From: Pseudodesulfovibrio indicus
GTDB lineage: Bacteria; Desulfobacterota; Desulfovibrionia; Desulfovibrionales; Desulfovibrionaceae
Assembly: GCF_001563225.1 (NCBI RefSeq)
Contig: NZ_CP014206.1
Span: 3,639,486-3,703,485 of the forward strand
Direction: 5' to 3'
DNA length: 64,000 nt
Shown here in pieces: positions 18,842 to 29,458 of this stretch. Position 1 is the stretch's first letter, and each line of letters starts with the position of its first letter. The notes below the pieces were generated by a model. It was not told the DNA's origin and did no database searches. It worked only from the letters and a program-made list of their open reading frames with translations. A program made the translations under genes and the position numbers.

Positions 18842-18862
18842 GTCACAACACAAGGGGGTGCT

Positions 18863-20122
18863 ATGGGAAAAATCTCCTCTTGGGATTGGGAACCCGGCCA
18901 AAAAACGGTCGTCAACTCCCTCTCCCCTCTCGAAGGACATGAATGGCAGGAAGAGCCGTATGCCTCGCCTGACGGCGAGACCATCGCCGCCATCGTCAAA
19001 GTGGGCGACGGCGAATTCTCCATTCGGACCAACGACACGGTATGGGAAGCCACGTTCGAAAAGATCTGGGCTCCGAAATTCTCTCCGGACGGTCGCCTGA
19101 CCGCCATCTGCCAGCAGGACATGGAATGGGTCCTGGCCGTGGACGGCGAGCTCATGGGCGAAACCACCGACTACATCTGGGACACCATGTTCAGTGAAGA
19201 CGGATCGGTCATCGCCACCATGTACAAAGGCATGGAAAGGTACGGCATGTGCCTGAACGGCGAGCCGTGGGAGAACCTCTACGAGAACCTCAATCAGCCC
19301 GTTCTGTCCAAGGACGGCGCCCACTCCGCGGGCGTGGCACAGGTGCAGAGCCTCGGCGCGGCCGACCTGGAAGGGTTCAAGCGCGGCGTCTACACCGTGG
19401 TCGTGGACGGACAGCCCTGGGAAAAGACCTACGTCAACGTCTGGACCCCGGTGTTCAACTCCGACGGCACCTCCGTGGCCGCCACCTGCCGCACCACCGT
19501 CTACAACCACACGATCACCGTGGACGGAAAGGCCTGGGACGCCACCTACAATCAGGTCTGGGAACCCGTCTTCTCGCCCAAGGACAACAGCGTCGCCGCC
19601 CCGGTCCGCGTGGCCGGCAAGTGGGGCGTGGCCAAGGACGGCAAGATGCTGTGGGATCCCCGCTACGTCCAGTGTCTGTACCTCCAGTACGACGCCAGCG
19701 GCGAGAAGCTGTGGGGCGTCGTCGCCACCAGCTACGGCCAGTTCACCGCCTGCGTGAACAACGCCCCCTGGGGCGAGACCTGGCCCACCGTGTCCGACCT
19801 GGTGGTCAGCCCCGACGGCCAGCGCGCCGCCGTCCTGGCCTCCAACTGCAACGAGGACTTCAAGATCGTGGTCGACGGCACCGCCTGGGCCGGCACCTAC
19901 GACATGGCCTGGCCCGTGGTCTTCTCTTCGGACTCCAAGTCCGCGGCCTGCAAGGTCGAGAAGAGCGGCCGGTACCGCATCCTGGTGAACGGCAAGTCCT
20001 ATGAACGGGACTTCGACGCCGTGTGGCCCCCGATCTTCAGCGAGGACGGCACCAAGGTGCTGATCCGCGCCATAGAGAACAACAGCTTCGTCCGCATCGT
20101 CGCGGAAGTATGCAACTTCTAA
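18863..20122 (+). CDS. tmcD: TmcD, tryptophan-rich propeller-like subunit of the Tmc complex
   Basis: 419 residues starting at ATG 18863 after AAGGGGGTG. It has no signal peptide, so it should be cytoplasmic. It is built of at least eight repeats of about 45-50 residues, each with a Gly-x-x-Trp turn and a Trp-x-Pro-x-Phe-Ser-x-Asp-Gly strand: for example GQPWEKTYVNVWTPVFNSDG, GKAWDATYNQVWEPVFSPKD, GTAWAGTYDMAWPVVFSSDS and GKSYERDFDAVWPPIFSEDG. This resembles a WD40-like beta-propeller and matches the tryptophan-rich TmcD subunit known from Desulfovibrio. Its role in the complex is structural or unknown. The gene opens the tmc operon here. Confidence 0.85.
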   Translation: MGKISSWDWEPGQKTVVNSLSPLEGHEWQEEPYASPDGETIAAIVKVGDGEFSIRTNDTVWEATFEKIWAPKFSPDGRLTAICQQDMEWVLAVDGELMGETTDYIWDTMFSEDGSVIATMYKGMERYGMCLNGEPWENLYENLNQPVLSKDGAHSAGVAQVQSLGAADLEGFKRGVYTVVVDGQPWEKTYVNVWTPVFNSDGTSVAATCRTTVYNHTITVDGKAWDATYNQVWEPVFSPKDNSVAAPVRVAGKWGVAKDGKMLWDPRYVQCLYLQYDASGEKLWGVVATSYGQFTACVNNAPWGETWPTVSDLVVSPDGQRAAVLASNCNEDFKIVVDGTAWAGTYDMAWPVVFSSDSKSAACKVEKSGRYRILVNGKSYERDFDAVWPPIFSEDGTKVLIRAIENNSFVRIVAEVCNF

Positions 20123-20135
20123 GGGGGGATCAGAT

Positions 20136-20795
20136 ATGACTGCATTCTATGTCTTCGTCACCGGTCCCCTCGCCTGGATCGCCTGGGGCGTCTTCGTCCT
20201 GGGCGCCATCTACCGCCTGGTCAGCATGTATTCGCTGGCCAAGGCCAAGGACGGCTCGTCCATCGCCTACATGAGCTGGTTCTACGGCCTGCGGTCCATC
20301 CTGGCCTGGATGGTCCCCTTCAAGTCCATGGGCTGGAAGTCCGATCCCCTGATGACCGTGACCACCTTCGCGTTCCACATCTGCTTCCTGCTGGTGGCCG
20401 TGTTCCTGGGCGCGCACGTGGTCCTCTGGGACACCGCGTTCGGCATCAGCCTCCCGAGCCTGCCCTCGCAGGCCGGTGACATCATCAGCTTCGTGGCGCT
20501 CGCCGGCTGCGCGGTCTTCGCCTACCGCCGGTTCGCCCTGCCCCACGTCAAGGGTGTCACCCGCTGCCAGGATTGGTTTGCCCTGATCCTCGTCGCGCTG
20601 CCGTTCATCACCGGCGTCCTGGCCTATCACCAGATCGGCCCGGTCCTGCTGATGACCACCCTGCACGCGCTCTCCGGTGAACTGCTGATCGCCCTGATCC
20701 CGTTCACCCGGCTGAGCCATGCGCTGTTCGTCCTGTTCACCAGGGCGTACATGGGTTCCGAATTCGGCGGCGTCCGCCATGCCAACGACTGGTAG
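20136..20795 (+). CDS. tmcC: TmcC, membrane cytochrome b subunit
   Basis: 219 residues with five to six hydrophobic helices, a NarI/DsrM-like diheme cytochrome b. Candidate haem-ligand histidines are in TFAFHICFLLVAVFLGAHVV, LAYHQIG, TLHALSGE and RLSHAL. It carries electrons from the periplasmic cytochrome TmcA across the membrane to the iron-sulfur subunit TmcB. It follows tmcD by 13 bases after a GGGGG ribosome site. Confidence 0.9.
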   Translation: MTAFYVFVTGPLAWIAWGVFVLGAIYRLVSMYSLAKAKDGSSIAYMSWFYGLRSILAWMVPFKSMGWKSDPLMTVTTFAFHICFLLVAVFLGAHVVLWDTAFGISLPSLPSQAGDIISFVALAGCAVFAYRRFALPHVKGVTRCQDWFALILVALPFITGVLAYHQIGPVLLMTTLHALSGELLIALIPFTRLSHALFVLFTRAYMGSEFGGVRHANDW

Positions 20796-20828
20796 GCCAA
20801 ACCATCATTGAAACGCGAGGTACGAACA

Positions 20829-22148
20829 ATGAGTCACATTGCTGACAGAATCATATCCGATGTCGGCCTTGAGGCCGGCGTCGCCGCGCTGACCACCGAG
20901 AAAATCGAAGAAGTGGTCAACCGGATGCTCAAGGGTGAAACCGGGGCCAAACTCCGGGCATACAGGGAGACCTGCATGCGCTGCGGCCTCTGTTCCCAGG
21001 GCTGCCATTACTACATGTCCCACGACGCCGACCCGAGCTACTCTCCGGTCAACAAGGCCACGGAGACCATGTACGAGCTGATGGACAAGAAGGGCAAGGT
21101 CACCCCCCAGCGCATCTACGAGATGGCGCAGATGGCCTTCACCGAATGCAACCTCTGCAAGCGGTGCGCCCACTACTGTCCGGTCGGCATCGATACCGGC
21201 TACATCATGTCCATGGTGCGCCGCATCTGCTACCTGCTGGACGTGGTCCCGCAGTACATCCGCGATACCGCGCACTCCCACGCCTCGACCATGAACCAGA
21301 TGTGGGTCAAGGACGACGAGTGGATCGACTCCCTGCAATGGCAGGAGGACGAGGCCCGCGACGAGTTCCCGGACCTGCGCATCCCGCTCGACAAGGAAGG
21401 GGCCGAGGTCTACTACTCGGTCATCGCCCCGGAACCCAAGTTCCGGACCCAGCTCATCTACCAGGCCGCGGCCATCATGAACGCCGCCGGCATCGACTGG
21501 ACCATGCCCTCCCATCCGGGTTGGGACAACTCCGACATGTGCATGTTCGTGGGCGACTTCGAAAACATGGGCCGCCTCAAACGCGCCCACTACGAGTCCG
21601 CCCAGAAGCTGCGGGTCAAGCGCATCGTCATGGGCGAGTGCGGCCACGCCTTCCGCTCGGTCTACGACATGGGCAACCGCTGGCTCGGCCACAAGAAGAT
21701 GCCGGTCCCGGTCATCCACGCCATCGACTTCTACTGGGAGCTGATCAACGAAGGAAAGATCAAGATCACCCACCAGTACGAGAACCCGGTGACCATTCAG
21801 GACCCGTGCAACATCATCCGCGGCCGAGGCCTCATGGACAAGCTCCGCGACGTGGTCCACTTCCTGTGCAAGGAAGTGGTCGAGATGACCCCCAACCGCG
21901 AGCACAACTACTGCTGCTGCGCGGGCGGCGGCGTCATCAACTGCGGTCCGCCGTTCAAGAACACCCGCATGGTGGGCAACCGCGTCAAGGCCGAGCAGCT
22001 CAAGGCTACCGGCGTCCACGACGTGGTCATCCCCTGCCACAACTGCCACGGCGGCATTGAAGACATCATCGGTTACTATGATCTCGGGATGCACGGTAAG
22101 TTCATCAGCGACATCATCTACGAACTGATGGAAAAACCGGAAGTCTAG
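20829..22148 (+). CDS. tmcB: TmcB, HdrD-like cytoplasmic iron-sulfur subunit
   Basis: 439 residues starting at ATG 20829. The N-terminal half holds two [4Fe-4S] motifs, CMRCGLCSQGCHYY (around 52-65) and CNLCKRCAHYCPVG (around 109-122). The C-terminal half has CCG-domain sequences, DPCNIIRGRG and YCCCAGGGVINCGPP, ending PCHNCHGGIED, like the catalytic noncubane cluster of heterodisulfide reductase subunit D. In Tmc it takes electrons from the cytochrome b subunit; the cytoplasmic acceptor is not established. The Cys residues of both cluster types are intact. Confidence 0.92.
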   Translation: MSHIADRIISDVGLEAGVAALTTEKIEEVVNRMLKGETGAKLRAYRETCMRCGLCSQGCHYYMSHDADPSYSPVNKATETMYELMDKKGKVTPQRIYEMAQMAFTECNLCKRCAHYCPVGIDTGYIMSMVRRICYLLDVVPQYIRDTAHSHASTMNQMWVKDDEWIDSLQWQEDEARDEFPDLRIPLDKEGAEVYYSVIAPEPKFRTQLIYQAAAIMNAAGIDWTMPSHPGWDNSDMCMFVGDFENMGRLKRAHYESAQKLRVKRIVMGECGHAFRSVYDMGNRWLGHKKMPVPVIHAIDFYWELINEGKIKITHQYENPVTIQDPCNIIRGRGLMDKLRDVVHFLCKEVVEMTPNREHNYCCCAGGGVINCGPPFKNTRMVGNRVKAEQLKATGVHDVVIPCHNCHGGIEDIIGYYDLGMHGKFISDIIYELMEKPEV

Positions 22149-22157
22149 GAGGACGCC

Positions 22158-22556
22158 ATGAAAAAGAACACCTTCACCATCGCGGCCTCCATGCTGACCA
22201 TCATCCTGTTGGTCGTCGCATACATGGCCCCCACGGCCTTTTCCCAGGACGACATGACCGAGGTGCCGGTGGACGGCTTCGCCAAGCTCGAACGCCCGCG
22301 CGTGCCTTTCATGCATGACGCCCACAACGAAAAGGCCGGACTGGACGATTGCGTGGTCTGCCACCATTCCAAGAATGACGACGGCACGCAGAACACCGAG
22401 GATTCCTCCGAGGGCGAATCGTGCAGCTCCTGCCATGCGGAGACGCGCACCGACGACGGCACCCCGCTGATGCGGGCGTACCACCTGCAGTGCCAGGGTT
22501 GCCACGAGGCGCAGGGCAAGGGTCCCGTGGCCTGCGGCGAGTGCCATCCCAAATAG
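22158..22556 (+). CDS. tmcA: TmcA, type II tetrahaem cytochrome c3
   Basis: 132 residues with a signal peptide (ends near MAPTAFS-QD) and four c-haem motifs: CVVCH, CSSCH, CQGCH and CGECH. The paired HH in CVVCHHSK and other His residues supply distal ligands. It is acidic, as expected for type II cytochrome c3. It receives electrons from periplasmic hydrogenase via type I cytochrome c3 and passes them to TmcC. The ribosome site AGGAGG starts right after the tmcB stop. It is the last gene of the operon in this window. Confidence 0.93.
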   Translation: MKKNTFTIAASMLTIILLVVAYMAPTAFSQDDMTEVPVDGFAKLERPRVPFMHDAHNEKAGLDDCVVCHHSKNDDGTQNTEDSSEGESCSSCHAETRTDDGTPLMRAYHLQCQGCHEAQGKGPVACGECHPK

Positions 22557-22717: not shown

Positions 22718-23305
22718 TTAACGGGTCATCCTTGTTTTTTCCGCCAGTGCGCCTGATCCATCGGCCGCAAGCCAGGCTAGCGCGGTTCCAAACCCGGCAA
22801 TGCCGGTTGCCGTTGCAAGCCCCATTGGCAACGGCACAAATAACCCGCCGGGTCCGCCCCGTTCACCGGGGCATCCAGACAATACCCGTACCAGTCCGGG
22901 TCGCCGCCCCGATCTCCAATCGGATCGGCCGCGGTCCATCTGCCGGTTTTGACGTCGTAGTGATTCGGGCCGTCCATGGCCCTCACCCCTTCGGGGCGTT
23001 GCGGAAAGACCGCAACGTCATCGCTGCTGTCGTTAGCTCTAAGACCGAGGAGACTCGGCCTAAGAGCTAATGCCAAATCCGCTGTCCTGCGGATTTGTCC
23101 CGCCCGCCGAAGCGGACGAAACCCAGGTCCCGGTCGTGCAGGCCGCCCGCAAAGCCGAGCGGGATGCGGAAGCCCGGGTTGGTGTCCTCGATGATCCCGC
23201 CGAACGGGTCGTACGCGATTTCCTTGATCACGTTGTCGTGCTTACCCACAGCCTGGTACGGGGAGCCGACCTGGTTGTGGGAGAGCCGTCGCTGGCGCTC
23301 CTCCA
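22718..23305 (-). pseudogene. Remnant of an RHS repeat-associated core protein
   Basis: Read leftward, the segment 23305-23097 encodes the RHS core: HNQVGSPYQAV, VIKEIAYDPFG, PLGFAGGLHDRDLGFVRFGG then RD. The next RHS-core residues, YDVKTGRWTAADPIGD followed by DPDWYGYCLDAPVNGADPAG, resume only at 22962. A 134-bp hairpin-rich insertion separates them. After DPAG the expected hydrophobic tail (LFVPLPMGLATATGIAG and onward) continues in another frame to 22718, so there is also a frameshift. No N-terminal RHS repeats are present. The copy is clearly dead and is only a 3' fragment of a once much larger gene. Confidence 0.85.
22963..23096. repeat. 134-bp hairpin-rich insertion inside the RHS remnant
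   Basis: The insert lies exactly between the RHS codons for RD and YD. It contains CCCC-TTC-GGGG (22986-22996), GTTGCGG/CCGCAAC (22998-23004, 23010-23016), a 17-base stem TTAGCTCTAAGACCGAG / CTCGGCCTAAGAGCTAA (23033-23049, 23054-23070; 15 of 17 pairs) and a perfect 8-bp stem AAATCCGC/GCGGATTT (23075-23082, 23089-23096) that ends at the insert edge. It has no coding capacity. It looks like a non-autonomous palindromic mobile repeat; the family is not recognised. Confidence 0.6.
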
Positions 23306-23331
23306 TGTTTTTTTGGAGCCCTCCCGGCGGG

Positions 23332-23383
23332 GTTCTTTCTTTTTCCAAAGCAAAAAAGAAAGAACGAAAGAAAAATGCTTTGG
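23332..23383 (+). repeat. A/T-rich hairpin with possible pseudoknot
   Basis: GTTCTTTCTTTTT (23332-23344) pairs perfectly with AAAAAGAAAGAAC (23353-23365). The loop holds CCAAAGC (23345-23351), which is fully complementary to GCTTTGG at 23377-23383. The RNA could form an H-type pseudoknot or switch between two stems. It flanks the RHS remnant and probably belongs to a dispersed intergenic repeat; no gene overlaps it. Confidence 0.5.
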
Positions 23384-23660
23384 GGGGTAGCCCACCGCCC
23401 GGAGTTTGGCCGCTGAGAATCCGATCCGCTCGGGGCGGCTCCATCTGATCAAAAGTATAGGGACAGTCTCCACCAGAGCGCCCCTTTTATGGGATACCGA
23501 GAGGCCACGGGAGCGGAGCCGCCGCCCTTTCGCGGTCGGCTTCCAGGCGTCCAGAACAGGGCTCGCTGCGTGCGGCTTGACGGGATGGCGGGGTATGTAA
23601 GCCGCTGTTTGAGGCTGCGGCCCCAAAATCGCTCCCAAGACAGTCCTCTGCTGCTTCGCC
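23384..23660. other. Intergenic stretch without a recognisable gene
   Basis: About 277 bases between the pseudoknot-like element and the first palindromic repeat. I see no reading frame with a ribosome site or recognisable product, and no promoter that I would defend. Confidence 0.5.
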
Positions 23661-23793: not shown

Positions 23794-26385
23794 CTAACCT
23801 CCTTCGGGCGGGGCGTCGAAGAGTTTGAAGTCTTCGAGGAACTTGGCCTTGCGGCGGGCCACGGCGGAGTCGTCGGACATGATCATGTCGAGCTGGCGGG
23901 TGTGGGTAATGAGGTAGCCGATGATCTTGAGCCGGTTGGCCATGGTTTCGCGGTCGAGGCCTTCGACGCGGGCGAACATGTTGTCCTGGCGGACGCGGAC
24001 GCGGAAGTCGAACATTTCGAGCAGGTCGCCCACGAACCGGGCGCGGCGGATGCGGCGCTCCATGTTGGCGGCCCCGCCCTTGAACTGGAAGGAGGCGTAG
24101 TTCTCGCTGACCCGCTCGCCCACCAGGGCCTCGACCCCGCAGAAGTGGAAGCCGAAGCGGGACTGGAGCGAGCAGTAGTTCTTCGAGACCATGAAATAGT
24201 TCTTCTGGGTGTAGCGGGTGCCGGCGGACGGGACCAGGTCCGGGTTCATGGTGGCCTCGAACATGACCGACATCAGCCCCCTGCCGTGGACCGGTGGCGG
24301 ACCCTGCCAGGGCACGGCCTGCATGCCTTCCCAGAGCATGCGCATGGGGAAGGAGACCACGTGTTTCAGGGGGATGCAGCGGTCCTTGCGGTCCTGCCCC
24401 TCCGGGGAAAACCCGTCGTCGAGGTTGAGAATCCAGAACTGCTTGGGCACGTCGCAGATGAGCTGGCGGCTGGCGGCCTCGATGAAATCGTCGTGGGTGC
24501 CGAACTCGAACATGACGTTCACGGCCCGCTCGTGGCAGTAGCGCATGACGTCGTGCAGGGTGCGGCAGTTGGACGGCTTGAACTCCGGGGATTCCGGGTT
24601 GGTCAGGTTGAGCCGGACGATGTGCCGCGCGGCCTTGCGCAGGGCCGCCTGGACCGGGGAGCCGCGCATGATGCGCTCGCGCGGGGCGTCCTTGAGCAGC
24701 GGCTCCACCGCGCCCTCGTAGACCGCGCGGCCGTCGGCGTCCACGGTCAGGATGGCGCCGTTCTCGAACCGCCCCACCGCGTTCTTGACCCCGAACAGGG
24801 CCGGGACGCCGAACTCGCGGGCCACGTTGGCCAGGTGCCCGGCCATGCCGCCCTGCTCGGAGATGAGCGCGCTGCACCGGTCGAGCAGCGCCGCCCGGCT
24901 GGGCAGGGCCTGGCGCAGGATCATCACGCCGCCGTCCGGGAAGGTCAGGGCGTCCACGTCCTTGCGCACGGTGAAGGCCGGGCCCACGCCCACGCCGGGG
25001 CTGGCGGTCTTGCCGCCGGACAGGACCGGCTTGGGCAGGTTGGCCGCGACGGTCTCGTGCTCCGGGCCGGTGGACAGGCGCATGAGCGGGCGGCACTGGA
25101 GCAGGTGGAAGACCCCGTCCGGGGTCATGGCCCATTCGATGTCCTGGGACACGCCGAAATGTTCCTCGATGCGCACGGCCTCGCGGGCCACGGCCAGGGC
25201 CTGCTCGTGCGTGAGGGACGGCTCGTTGCCCCGGTCTTCGAGCAGGGTTTCGCGGCACACGCCCTCGTCCCGGCGGCAGACGTACATGTCGGTCTTCTCG
25301 GCCACCACGACCTCCTCCACGCGCAGGGGGTCGCGGGCGACGATGAATTCGTCGGCCCCGGCAGTGCCGTCCACCACGGGCTTGGGCAACCCCCAGACCG
25401 AGTGGATGGACACGCGGTCGTCGCGAACGTTGACCGGGTTGCCGGAATAGGCCACGCCGCCGGACATGGACTCGATCATGGTCATGCAGCCCACGCTCAT
25501 GGCCACGTCCTCGTCGCGGATGCCGTGGGTCAGCCGGTAGGCCATGGCCTGGCGCGAGTACTTGGAGGCGACCACCTCCTTGTAGGCGTCCAGCAGGGAG
25601 GAGCGCTCCACGTTGAGCACCGACCGGTACTGGCCCGCGAAGGACGACCCCTCGATGTCCTCGCCCAGCGCGCTGGAGCGCACGGCCAGGTCGGGCGGCG
25701 CGCCCAGGGTTTCGGCCAGCCGGTCGTAGGCGGCCAGGATCGCTTCGGCCAGGTCGTCCGGCAGCCGGGTCTCGATGACCAGCTGCATGATGTTGGAAGA
25801 AACCCGGAACACGGACTCGCGGTCGTCGCCGTCCATGGTCTGGATGAGGCGGTCGATCTCGGTCCCCAGCCCATGGGACTGCATGAACCGGTGAAAGGAG
25901 GCCACGGTGATGACGAACCCCGCCGGGATGCGCAGCCCCAGGCTGTGCCCGGCCTCGCCGAGCATGGCCATCTTGGGGCCGCAGAGGTCCGCATGGTCGC
26001 GGTTGACCTCGGTAAGGTCGATGACCGGCAGGCCCTCGGCCTGATGGGCGTCCGGCTCCAGCTCCTCCATGATCCGCTCGTTGATGGACTGCATGGCGGC
26101 CACGAGGTCCGCATTGCCCGACGGGTCCAGCTCGCCCATGTGACGGACCATCTGGAAGATGGCCGTGGAGATGCGCGTGCACAGGGTGCGCACGAAGTGC
26201 ATGCCGTAGGGGGTGAAGCCGCGCAACGCCTCCTCCAGCTCGCCCATCAGCTCGTGGGCGCGGGTGTTGGCCTGGATGAGCAGCCGGAAATGGTCGTAGC
26301 GGGTGGCGAACACCCGGCGCATCTCGGCCCGCTCTTCGGGGGTCTTTTCCTTCTTGCGGAACGGCAGCCAATCGAACAGGCCCAT
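23794..26385 (-). CDS. PEP-synthase-like protein with ATP-grasp and phosphohistidine domains but no PEP barrel
   Basis: 863 residues. An N-terminal extension of about 140 residues is followed by the PEP-synthase/PPDK nucleotide-binding domain (GEAGHSLGLRIPAGFVIT at about 130-150, PPDLAVRSSALGEDIEGSSF near 220 and AYSGNPVN further on). A swivelling phosphohistidine domain follows, with the catalytic His in ISEQGGMAGHLANVAREFGV near residue 525. The last 260 residues are not the expected PEP/pyruvate TIM barrel but an unfamiliar domain (FGFHFCGVEAL, FQFKGGAANMERRIRRARFV). It could phosphorylate its own His from ATP but has no visible PEP site. It ends a run with three receivers and a histidine kinase. 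Confidence 0.7.
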   Translation of the reverse strand: MGLFDWLPFRKKEKTPEERAEMRRVFATRYDHFRLLIQANTRAHELMGELEEALRGFTPYGMHFVRTLCTRISTAIFQMVRHMGELDPSGNADLVAAMQSINERIMEELEPDAHQAEGLPVIDLTEVNRDHADLCGPKMAMLGEAGHSLGLRIPAGFVITVASFHRFMQSHGLGTEIDRLIQTMDGDDRESVFRVSSNIMQLVIETRLPDDLAEAILAAYDRLAETLGAPPDLAVRSSALGEDIEGSSFAGQYRSVLNVERSSLLDAYKEVVASKYSRQAMAYRLTHGIRDEDVAMSVGCMTMIESMSGGVAYSGNPVNVRDDRVSIHSVWGLPKPVVDGTAGADEFIVARDPLRVEEVVVAEKTDMYVCRRDEGVCRETLLEDRGNEPSLTHEQALAVAREAVRIEEHFGVSQDIEWAMTPDGVFHLLQCRPLMRLSTGPEHETVAANLPKPVLSGGKTASPGVGVGPAFTVRKDVDALTFPDGGVMILRQALPSRAALLDRCSALISEQGGMAGHLANVAREFGVPALFGVKNAVGRFENGAILTVDADGRAVYEGAVEPLLKDAPRERIMRGSPVQAALRKAARHIVRLNLTNPESPEFKPSNCRTLHDVMRYCHERAVNVMFEFGTHDDFIEAASRQLICDVPKQFWILNLDDGFSPEGQDRKDRCIPLKHVVSFPMRMLWEGMQAVPWQGPPPVHGRGLMSVMFEATMNPDLVPSAGTRYTQKNYFMVSKNYCSLQSRFGFHFCGVEALVGERVSENYASFQFKGGAANMERRIRRARFVGDLLEMFDFRVRVRQDNMFARVEGLDRETMANRLKIIGYLITHTRQLDMIMSDDSAVARRKAKFLEDFKLFDAPPEGG

Positions 26386-26465
26386 GCGGTGTCGTCCTCC
26401 GGGGGTAGTCGTCCGGGAAATTCAGGGTTCGGGTGTGGCGGGGGCGGTGCTCCGGAGGGGGTGGA

Positions 26466-26876
26466 TCACGAACTGTGCGACCGGGCCGCGATCCGCTCCT
26501 CGTGATGGCGCTTGCGGTTCGAGGCGTCCTCCAGCTTGTAGAGCAGCTCCTCGAACTCCACGGGCTTCATCAGGTAGTCGAAGGCGCCCAGCTCCATGCC
26601 CCGGATGGCGATCTCCATGCTGGCGTGGCCGGTGAGCATGACCACCTCCACCAGGGGCTGCGCCTCCTTGATCTTGTGCAGGGCGGTCAGGCCGTCCATG
26701 CCCGGCATCTTGACGTCGAGCAGGATCACGTCCGGCTGGAACGCCTCGAGCCGCTCGAGGGCTTCCTCGCCCGACCCGGCCTGGGCCACGGTCATGCCGC
26801 GCCGGGTCAACCGTTTTCCCAGCGCATTCCTGAATGATTCCTCGTCGTCCACGAGGAGCGCTTTAATCTCGGCCAT
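26466..26876 (-). CDS. Receiver-only response regulator (third of three)
   Basis: 136 residues, one CheY-like receiver domain. The acidic pair is in ALLVDDEESF, the phospho-acceptor Asp in VILLDVKMPGMDG and the conserved Thr/Lys in MLTGHA and YLMKPVEF. The C-terminal tail KRHHEERIAARSHSS has no DNA-binding or enzymatic domain. It lies five bases after the second regulator and 80 bases before the PEP-synthase-like gene. Its partner is probably the histidine kinase at the head of the operon. Confidence 0.9.
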   Translation of the reverse strand: MAEIKALLVDDEESFRNALGKRLTRRGMTVAQAGSGEEALERLEAFQPDVILLDVKMPGMDGLTALHKIKEAQPLVEVVMLTGHASMEIAIRGMELGAFDYLMKPVEFEELLYKLEDASNRKRHHEERIAARSHSS

Positions 26877-26881
26877 GAGCC

Positions 26882-27280
26882 TCACTCCGTTTCGTTCTGC
26901 GAGGACGCCGTCCCTGCGGCGGCCTCGCCTATCTTGTCCAGCAGATCGTCCAGGGCGCACGGCTTGAGCAGGTAGTCGAAGGCCCCGGATTTGACGCCTT
27001 CGCGGGCCGCCTGCTCCGAGCCGTGGCCCGTGAGCATGATCACCGGCAGGTCCGGCACCATCTTCTTCATTATCTGCAAGACCTCGATGCCGTCCATGTC
27101 CTCCAGCTTGAGGTCCAGGACGGCCACGTCGAAATCGTTGCCCCTGAGCACCTGGATGCCCTCGGCCCCGCTGCCCGCCGTGGTCACCGCGTAGCCCCGC
27201 TTGCCCATGCGCTTGGCCAGCACATCGAGGAAGCCGATCTCGTCGTCGACCAGCAGAACGCGGACGGGGGACTCGCTCAT
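26882..27280 (-). CDS. Receiver-only response regulator (second of three)
   Basis: 132 residues starting at ATG 27280 (MSESPVRV) behind GGAGGT. Receiver signatures: VLLVDDEIGF, acceptor Asp in VAVLDLKLEDMDG, then MLTGHGSEQ and YLLKPCAL. No output domain. It sits eight bases after the first regulator. Such proteins shuttle phosphate or act by protein contact. Confidence 0.9.
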   Translation of the reverse strand: MSESPVRVLLVDDEIGFLDVLAKRMGKRGYAVTTAGSGAEGIQVLRGNDFDVAVLDLKLEDMDGIEVLQIMKKMVPDLPVIMLTGHGSEQAAREGVKSGAFDYLLKPCALDDLLDKIGEAAAGTASSQNETE

Positions 27281-27288
27281 GGGACCTC

Positions 27289-27720
27289 CTAGTCCCCGCG
27301 CCGAAGGACGATATGCCTGGCGCGCGCCTCCAGGATCTTGTTCTCGTGGGCCTGCTTCTTGTCGTAGGCGTCCTCCACCTTGGACACCAGGTCCTCCAGG
27401 TTGCACGGCTTCATCATGTAGTCGAACGCCCCGGACTTCATGCCCTCGATGGCCGACTCCACGGTGGCGTGGCCGGTGAGCATGATGACCTCCACCAGGG
27501 GGTGGTCGGCCTTGACGATCTTGAGCACCTCATTGCCGTCCATGCCGGGCATCTTCACGTCCAGGACGACCACATCGTACCAGACGTCGCCGTCCAGCGC
27601 GGCGAGGGCTTGCGGGCCGTCGTAGGCCACGCCCACGGTATAGCCCCGGTTCTCCAGCCGCTTGGCCATGGTGTCCACAAAACCCCGTTCGTCGTCAACG
27701 AGTAGAATCCTTGCAGGCAT
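27289..27720 (-). CDS. Receiver-only response regulator (first of three)
   Basis: 143 residues. Receiver signatures: ILLVDDERGF, acceptor Asp in VVVLDVKMPGMDG, MLTGHATVES and YMMKPCNL. A charged helical tail of about 20 residues (KKQAHENKILEARARHIV) follows. It is closest to the histidine kinase (37-base gap). The three receivers resemble one another strongly and probably arose by tandem duplication. Confidence 0.9.
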   Translation of the reverse strand: MPARILLVDDERGFVDTMAKRLENRGYTVGVAYDGPQALAALDGDVWYDVVVLDVKMPGMDGNEVLKIVKADHPLVEVIMLTGHATVESAIEGMKSGAFDYMMKPCNLEDLVSKVEDAYDKKQAHENKILEARARHIVLRRGD

Positions 27721-27757
27721 CTCGCCCTCCTGATGGTCAAACTGTGTTCCGGCCCGT

Positions 27758-29458
27758 TCAGGCCGCTTCCTCCGTGTCCGTGTCGTCGACCCGCCCGGCG
27801 GGCAGCCGGATGGTGAAGGTCGTGCCCTCGCCCACGGCGGAGCTGACCGAAATGGTCCCGCCCATCTTGTTGATGATCCCGTAGATGATGGACAATCCCA
27901 GTCCCGTGCCCTTGCCCACCGGCTTGGTGGTGAAGAACGGGTCGAAAATGCGCGAAAGATTGGCCTGGGGAATGCCGCACCCCGTGTCCGAGATGGAGAT
28001 GGCCACCACGTCGCCCTCCTGGCGGGTGATGACGTCCAGGTCGCCGCCGCCGGAATCCATGGCGTCGATGGCGTTGTTCACCAGGTTGAGAAAGACCTGC
28101 TGCATCTCGGACGGGCTGGCCTTGACCGGCGCGATGCCGTCGCCCAGGCTGGTCTCGATGATCACGTTGGCGTACTTGGCCCGCTGCTGGGAGAGTTCCA
28201 CAATCTCGAGGACCAGCTCGTTGAGGTCGAAGGACATGACCGTGGGGTCGATCTTGCGGGCAAAGGACAGGAGCTTGTGGGTGATCTCCTTGCAGCGCGC
28301 GCCCTGGGTGCGGATCTGGTTCAGCGCCCGCTGGACCTCGCGCTCGTTGTCGCTCTTGGACAATCCTTCCTCCAGAAGGTCCTGAATCCAGCCCGCCTCC
28401 TCGACCATGATGGCCACCGGGTTGTTGATCTCGTGGGCGATGCCCGCGGCCAGCTCGCCCACGCTGGCCAGCTTGCCCGCCTCGATGACCTGATCGTTCA
28501 TGATGTCCTTGGCCGCGTCGGCCTTCTGGACCTTGCGGGCCATGCGGCGGCTGGTCAGGACGGCCATGGCGGTGATGGCCACGCCGCCGATGAAAAGGAT
28601 GAAGATCGCCAGGTTGCGGCTGCGGTTCAGGGTGGCGAAGGCGTCGGCCGTGTCCTGCTGGTAGACCATCAGCCAGTCGCCGCCCTTGATGGGACTGGTC
28701 ACGAAGATCGTCTCCAGGCCCGTGGCCGGGTTGTCCATGATGGTCATGGCCGCGCGGTCGCCGCTCTCGGCCATGGACTCGGCCATGCCCTTGAGGAACG
28801 GGACCTCGGCGGCCATGTCGCGGCGCGGGGTGGTCTGGAACTCGCCCTTGCGGTTGAGGATGTAGGCCATGCCGGTCTCGCCGATGCGGATGTCCTCCAC
28901 CAGCCGGTTGAAGGCGATGAAGTCCAGGGTGGTGCGCAGGACGTAGCGTTTTCCCCCGGCGTCCATGCGCAGGGCGATGATGAAATGCGGCACCCCGCGC
29001 AGCCCCAGCCCCACGTCGCTGACGTGGACCGGATGCTGCTGGACGGCCCGGAACCACTCCTCCCCGGAGTAGTCCACGCCCTGGAGCTGGAACGGGCCGG
29101 AATAGGCCACCTGGATGCCGTGGTCGTCGATCAGCCCGAGGTCCACGAAGTCCGTGCCGTGGCCCTGGACCAGGGCCTGGTGCAGGGCCTCGATGCCTTC
29201 CGGGTTGGCCAGGTGGCCGAGGTCGATGACCTCCGCCAGGACGCGGATTTCGGCGACTTTTTCTTCGAGATAGGCGTTGATGGTCTGGTCGTGCTTGAGG
29301 ACCAGCTCGCGCAGGTGGGCCTCGACCTTCTCCTCGTAGGCCACGCTGTACTGGTATCCGGCGATAAGCACGACCACGAACAGCGGGGCAAAGGAGACGA
29401 GTATGATGGTGAACATCATGCTCTTGGCCAACCCCTTGTAATAGTGAACGTCCGACAT
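27758..29458 (-). CDS. Sensor histidine kinase with double-Cache-like periplasmic domain
   Basis: 566 residues, start ATG 29458 after GGAGCTGG. One helix (MMFTIILVSFAPLFVVVLIA) near the N-terminus, a periplasmic sensor of about 240 residues with dCache-like features (RYVLRTTLDFIAFNRLVEDI, GMAYILNRKGEFQTTP, WLMVYQQDTADAF), and a second helix (LAIFILFIGGVAITAMAVL) near residue 295. The transmitter has the H-box ELAAGIAHEINNPVAIMVEE, N-box VFLNLVNNAIDAM, and ATP-lid runs ISDTGCGIPQANLSRIFDPF and GTGLGLSIIYGII. It heads the minus-strand signalling operon with three receivers and the PEP-synthase-like protein. Confidence 0.9.
   Translation of the reverse strand: MSDVHYYKGLAKSMMFTIILVSFAPLFVVVLIAGYQYSVAYEEKVEAHLRELVLKHDQTINAYLEEKVAEIRVLAEVIDLGHLANPEGIEALHQALVQGHGTDFVDLGLIDDHGIQVAYSGPFQLQGVDYSGEEWFRAVQQHPVHVSDVGLGLRGVPHFIIALRMDAGGKRYVLRTTLDFIAFNRLVEDIRIGETGMAYILNRKGEFQTTPRRDMAAEVPFLKGMAESMAESGDRAAMTIMDNPATGLETIFVTSPIKGGDWLMVYQQDTADAFATLNRSRNLAIFILFIGGVAITAMAVLTSRRMARKVQKADAAKDIMNDQVIEAGKLASVGELAAGIAHEINNPVAIMVEEAGWIQDLLEEGLSKSDNEREVQRALNQIRTQGARCKEITHKLLSFARKIDPTVMSFDLNELVLEIVELSQQRAKYANVIIETSLGDGIAPVKASPSEMQQVFLNLVNNAIDAMDSGGGDLDVITRQEGDVVAISISDTGCGIPQANLSRIFDPFFTTKPVGKGTGLGLSIIYGIINKMGGTISVSSAVGEGTTFTIRLPAGRVDDTDTEEAA

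Follow-up and report, generated by a model that had tools for sequence, protein, structure and literature searches.

What do receiver proteins act on when neither they nor the proteins encoded alongside them carry a DNA-binding domain? This question is raised by five minus-strand genes at 23794-29458 of the window (the whole 64,000-nucleotide stretch of Pseudodesulfovibrio indicus DNA analyzed here), which form an operon in the order HK-RR1-RR2-RR3-PPS with gaps of 37, 8, 5, and 80 bp. HK (27758-29458, with the start chosen by the codon model and the reading frame open to 29509) encodes a sensor histidine kinase with HisKA and HATPase_c domains and a dCache_1 domain that scores 65 bits against a Pfam cut-off of 45. 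RR1 (27289-27720, which in other genomes is the receiver that comes next to HK), RR2 (26882-27280), and RR3 (26466-26876, the receiver type that immediately precedes PPS) match only Response_reg in Pfam, share 44-53% pairwise identity, and retain their Asp, Thr, and Lys residues. PPS (23794-26385) encodes an 863-residue PEP-synthase-like protein with the Pfam domains PPDK_N and PEP-utilizers. An earlier note on this DNA had described a dCache-like kinase, three similar receiver-only proteins, and an 863-residue protein without DNA-binding output; its coordinates and domains are right, and Pfam finds no DNA-binding domain in any of the five proteins. The sensor kinase and receivers of a two-component system are therefore present, and a known output domain on RR1-RR3 is absent. 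Because they have no DNA-binding domain, the receivers must act on a protein. A sigma-54 promoter pattern was not enriched in the window, and none was found upstream of HK. We conclude that the five-gene set is probably an undescribed signaling output that works by ATP-driven phosphate transfer and not by gene switching.

The front end of PPS is that of a PEP synthase relative. An N-terminal helical bundle (residues ~16-109; 26059-26340, minus strand), visible as three long helices in the model and without a Pfam match, is followed by an ATP-grasp domain (residues 133-444; 25054-25989, minus strand; PPDK_N, PF01326, 289 bits) and a swivelling phosphohistidine domain with His517 in the motif GGMAGH (residues 482-551; 24733-24942, minus strand; PEP-utilizers, PF00391, 55 bits). 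The full-length model (pLDDT 87) matches PEP synthase 2ols with an E value of 5e-23, and also rifampin phosphotransferase. Residues K138, R236, D415, E417, Q430, R432, and His517 are invariant in an alignment of 72 homologues, and alignment with solved PEP synthases places the invariant residues in conserved ATP-site and His motifs. Given this invariance across the 72 homologues, ATP-dependent self-phosphorylation of His517, of the kind suggested in the earlier note, may soundly be inferred from sequence. PEP synthase and PPDK are controlled by a DUF299 kinase. PPS has Ala two residues before its catalytic His, a position that is Thr in both enzymes, and control of PPS by a DUF299 kinase is therefore unlikely.

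The same residues bear on whether PPS might be a regulatory scaffold with vestigial catalysis, which we consider very improbable. Arg or Gln does replace the catalytic His in 6 of 122 homologues, mostly beside an intact copy, but proteins of the window type show no variation at His517 or at the ATP-grasp residues, and His517 is present in all 77 wider homologues. The replaced copies (L057, L059, L071, L079, L080, and L081) have a weak ATP-grasp match and mostly share an operon with their intact second copy, hinting at possible pseudoenzyme-enzyme (regulatory) pairs.

Two named enzymes are the closest points of comparison. PEP synthase (PpsA, EC 2.7.9.2) has the ATP-grasp domain, the swivelling His domain, and the invariant catalytic residues in common with PPS, but it carries a pyruvate/PEP barrel, whereas PPS has no barrel and an added N-terminal helical bundle; the PPS score against the PEP synthase NCBIfam model TIGR01418 is 304.7 bits, below the cut-off of 739.75. 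Rifampin phosphotransferase (Rph) resembles PPS in that its ATP-grasp and His domains are of the PEP synthase kind and are joined to an acceptor domain that is not for pyruvate. In Rph the order is ATP-grasp, RIF domain, and His domain last, whereas in PPS the His domain precedes the C-terminal domain, and the PPS score against the Rph NCBIfam model is 219.5 bits, below the cut-off of 999. PPS thus lacks the barrel and falls under the cut-off of PEP synthase, falls under that of Rph, and appears from its sequence to share the front-end chemistry of both.

The C-terminal domain (residues 561-863; 23797-24705, minus strand; alignments A1 and A2) belongs to an unnamed family. Pfam finds nothing in PPS from residue 552 onward, including the PEP barrel PF02896, and residues 561-863 gave no convincing match in Pfam, NCBIfam, or PDB sequences. 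A model of the domain built from 72 sequences (pLDDT 86) has a mixed alpha/beta fold and not a (beta/alpha)8 barrel. Foldseek returned no PDB match for this model at E <= 0.001; PDB searches by sequence and Foldseek searches of viral models gave weak matches only. The best VIA-align hits (Z 6.7) cover ferredoxin-like pieces only and lie within the tool's stated noise, and McsB and arginine kinases occur among the weak matches at Z of about 5, level with unrelated entries. The absence of PF02896 and the modelled secondary structure rule out a PEP barrel, and the proposal in the earlier note that a different domain takes its place is confirmed. Near-unbroken motifs run through the alignments (C.TLHDI.RFCHE..V.EMF, RFGFHF..VE, ENY..FQFKGGAA..RR, and HTRQLDM), and the invariant polar residues are H611, D612, R615, H618, E619, R743, H747, R777, R781, D801, R830, Q831, and D833.

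Within the order, 130 of 150 genomes carry the C-terminal domain, in up to nine copies each; for the phylum, the figure is 147 of 395 sampled genomes. The few matches labelled as lying outside the phylum come from Nitrospirota and Myxococcota bins. The dissimilatory sulfite reductase gene dsrB is present in 140 of the 147 genomes with the domain and in 50 of the 248 others (odds ratio 79, a raw count that ignores shared descent). PPS is thus not confined to a single operon but belongs to a large protein family found in sulfate reducers, and an orphan or one-off operon is ruled out by the wide recurrence of both domain and gene set. More than one in three of the phylum's sampled genomes carry the domain, yet the libraries searched give it neither a family name nor an assigned function. 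The suggestion in the earlier note of an undescribed system holds insofar as the literature search found no paper describing the module as such; it must be qualified in that a relative lies in a published nitrate cluster, the nearest precedent (PMC4001038).

Genes around PPS homologues were called with the codon model and searched with the window's proteins, yielding 125 loci flanked by 4 kb or more on each side, and a neighbor was defined as lying within five genes and 7 kb. A bare receiver lies near PPS in 112 of the 125 loci and a dCache kinase in 68; shared descent makes some of the loci redundant, and the counts are therefore descriptive. For comparison, a point picked at random in the window's genome has a 27% chance of lying within 8.3 kb of any receiver. 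The expectation in the earlier note that homologues would stand beside receivers in other genomes is thus borne out. The commonest sensor-led order is HK-RR1-RR2-RR3, with a permease next in 24 loci and PPS next in 11; written in full, it is HK-RR1-RR2-RR3-(permease-P236)-PPS. Some sets are shorter and have one receiver or two. The five-gene arrangement is more than chance, because it recurs across many genera. Some family members have no receiver nearby (the remaining 13 loci; L201 and L205). At L201:5263-8744 lies a PPS relative of ~1058 residues with an extra C-terminal stretch, located by a housekeeping-like cluster and a rhodanese gene.

The receiver directly upstream of PPS is of the RR3 type in 56 of 63 cases, with a median gap of 52 bp, and RR3 is for this reason the best candidate partner of PPS. 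Distance matrices of HK and RR1-RR3 against PPS were uninformative about the cognate receiver, as the correlations (r 0.54-0.76) all follow common descent. Gene order by itself does not fix the direction of signaling. Phosphohistidine is a natural donor to a receiver Asp, and PPS could therefore be a phosphate donor whose ATP-made phosphohistidine is passed to the receivers, reporting the ATP/AMP state in addition to the sensor signal. This alternative, raised in the earlier note, fits receivers that keep their Asp, Thr, and Lys sites, and it fits a linkage of PPS to receivers that exceeds its linkage to the dCache kinase. We nevertheless judge it improbable: a histidine kinase is usually present for receiver phosphorylation, the highly conserved C-terminal domain would be left unexplained, and the receivers of the core module have no output domain of their own. 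Control of PPS by the receivers is favored over phosphorylation of the receivers by PPS.

Permeases are the other frequent neighbors. By Pfam, TauE/SafE permeases (TSUP in our shorthand) lie near PPS in 75 of the 125 loci, permeases of the Na+:sulfate-symporter type in 21, and any permease in 85. The unnamed TauE/SafE-PPS operons of Desulfobacterota (L096-L175) have the same protein family and the same HK-RR1-RR2-RR3-PPS order as the window, but they carry the permease and a ~230-residue partner between RR3 and PPS, and the window's genome has both of these at another locus. This partner, P236, has no Pfam match and starts with a likely membrane helix (L044:6091-6798, L209:8286-8969); it was found in 58 of the 125 neighborhoods and in many adjoins the TauE/SafE permease. 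At two other loci (L202:10870-15525 and L203), PPS comes after the gene for a membrane sigma-54 activator that is weakly similar to dCache, and it is divergent from another TauE permease; the sensor differs here, but the theme is alike.

Linked transporters are also what would be expected if PPS were a metabolic dikinase whose C-terminal domain phosphorylates a small molecule that the permease imports, possibly a sulfur oxoanion or organic acid, with HK and the receivers tuning its level or rate. This is the main rival to the mechanism proposed below, although we hold it to be rather unlikely. Small molecules are the substrates phosphorylated by all known relatives with ATP-grasp and swivelling His domains that match PPS (PEP synthase, PPDK, and rifampin phosphotransferase), and the many invariant polar residues of the C-terminal domain are such as an active site would have. 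On the other hand, one C-terminal domain accompanies permeases of several families, and the receivers, as noted above, must act on a protein.

A further argument against a dikinase comes from the nitrate cluster. Korte et al. (2014) found that nitrate no longer inhibits D. vulgaris and D. alaskensis when transposons disrupt genes of a cluster with poor annotation, DVU0251-DVU0245/Dde_0597-Dde_0605; insertions in the TauE permease, the bare receiver DVU0247, and the PPDK-like DVU0246 each had this effect, as did others, and a leaky thiosulfate transporter was suggested (PMC4001038). Nitrate should still enter cells that have merely lost a downstream enzyme, yet insertion in the PPS-like gene confers nitrate resistance (PMC4001038). 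Simple polarity does not explain the effect of this insertion, because the permease precedes the PPS-like gene in the published order. These data are from transposon mutants without complementation of the permease, receiver, and PPS-like genes, and pool and isolate behavior differed for DVU0250 (PMC4001038). A phosphatase mutant had the opposite phenotype in D. vulgaris, and not in G20 (PMC4001038); by analogy, the D. vulgaris phenotype would fit an antagonist of a kinase.

The D. vulgaris cluster was matched by gene order, sizes, and annotation to a locus of its relative Desulfovibrio sp. A2 (L200), which encodes a DUF169 protein, a TauE permease, a 196-residue protein, a phosphonate-binding-type protein, a kinase, a 119-residue receiver, PPS, and a dual-specificity-type phosphatase. 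The A2 PPS carries the same C-terminal domain as the window PPS, with ~30% identity between the two in this domain. The nitrate cluster and the window thus have in common a histidine kinase, a bare receiver, and a PPDK-like protein with this domain; L077, the window genome's own nitrate cluster, which lies elsewhere, also shares it. The nitrate cluster differs in having one receiver, a PAS-type kinase, a linked TauE permease, a PtxB-like protein, and a phosphatase; none of the last three is found within 23794-29458.

Together, these observations point to a signaling module of sulfate reducers with bare receivers gating a phosphohistidine transferase that is driven by ATP and needed for the activity of an anion permease or a similar target, a reading to which we give an even chance. 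It draws on the conserved gene order, the receiver and permease linkage (112 and 85 of 125 loci), and the invariant residues, and it has a precedent in the single phenotype shared by permease, receiver, and PPS-like mutants of a relative (PMC4001038). In this mechanism, the dCache kinase HK would sense a periplasmic signal and phosphorylate the bare receivers, and RR3 would dock on PPS and gate it. The ATP-grasp domain of PPS would phosphorylate His517, as in PEP synthase, and the His domain would then swing to the C-terminal domain, which would replace the pyruvate barrel and hold or select the acceptor. In most relatives, PPS output would be required for the activity of the linked anion permease (TauE/SafE, Na+:sulfate symporter, or SulP). 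In the window, PPS would be split from its permease operon, and the target could be an unlinked permease at 2.98 Mb or an electron-transfer step. The direction of signaling, the docking, the phosphate acceptor, and the target in the window are inferred.

The module raises the question of whether a receiver can switch an enzyme of the PEP synthase type. More tentatively, it may represent a new output class in which receivers directly switch PPS and PPS phosphorylates a transporter or other protein, so that sulfate reducers could adjust anion uptake or electron flow quickly and without transcription. If the module does gate anion entry or electron flow, it would account for what many of the receiver-only proteins in sulfate reducers do and for how the so far unexplained mutants come to resist nitrate, and it would offer a point at which souring and corrosion could be controlled.

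The earlier note had also drawn attention to the neighboring tmc genes. The tmcDCBA genes at 18857-22556 are convergent with the PPS operon, and all pass the NCBIfam TmcA-D cut-offs: tmcD (18857-20122; NF045725, 612 bits), tmcC (20136-20795; NF045723), tmcB (20808-22148; NF045724), and tmcA (22158-22556; NF045722), each on the plus strand. Between tmcA and PPS, at 22777-23444 on the minus strand, two short frames resemble the broken end of an RHS/YD-repeat protein, the second with a TEN_YD-shell match below cut-off.

In a survey of co-occurrence as proposed in the earlier note, tmcB was found to adjoin PPS in 15 of 24 close orthologues (identity ~73% or more, within the genus; counted from listed positions), and tmcB matches occur in all 36 genomes of the genus, 34 of them over cut-off. 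The tmc-adjacent PPS copies form one clade (6/6, support 1.0) nested among the PPS of permease operons in the tree. The position beside tmc therefore stands for the window and much of its genus, but it is confined to that clade, and the usual neighbor of PPS is an anion permease. This distribution bears on the idea that the operon directly regulates the adjoining Tmc electron-transfer complex, which we think decidedly unlikely. The convergent neighbor in the 15 orthologues would fit such regulation, as would the occurrence of tmc beside other histidine-kinase and receiver genes in two other lineages (L237 and L238). However, nearly all family members lie elsewhere, and some close orthologues within the same genus lie away from tmc even though tmc is present. 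As a general partner of PPS, tmc is ruled out on these grounds; the linkage is real but local, a single derived event in one genus.

That no permease is linked to the window PPS counts against the gated-transferase mechanism, as do the family members that have no receiver nearby and the limits of the nitrate-cluster mutant data. Elsewhere in the same genome L209 has the order HK-RR1-RR2-RR3-TauE-P236-HK-regulator without PPS. In L097, the next branch to the tmc-adjacent clade, both half-operons lie side by side. The simplest account is that the sensor-receiver set was duplicated, the permease was split from PPS, and PPS later moved beside tmc. Besides its nitrate-cluster copy (L077), the window's genome has a further copy in a symporter-RR-PPS-HK locus (L076).

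At L237:417-11066 and L238:1627-17500, both from other Desulfovibrionaceae, the signaling genes beside tmc are different ones (kinases, receivers, and a universal stress protein), and tmc seems to have gained signal-transduction neighbors more than once. One genome carries a tandem pair of complete tmcABCD sets (L240:6563-14509).
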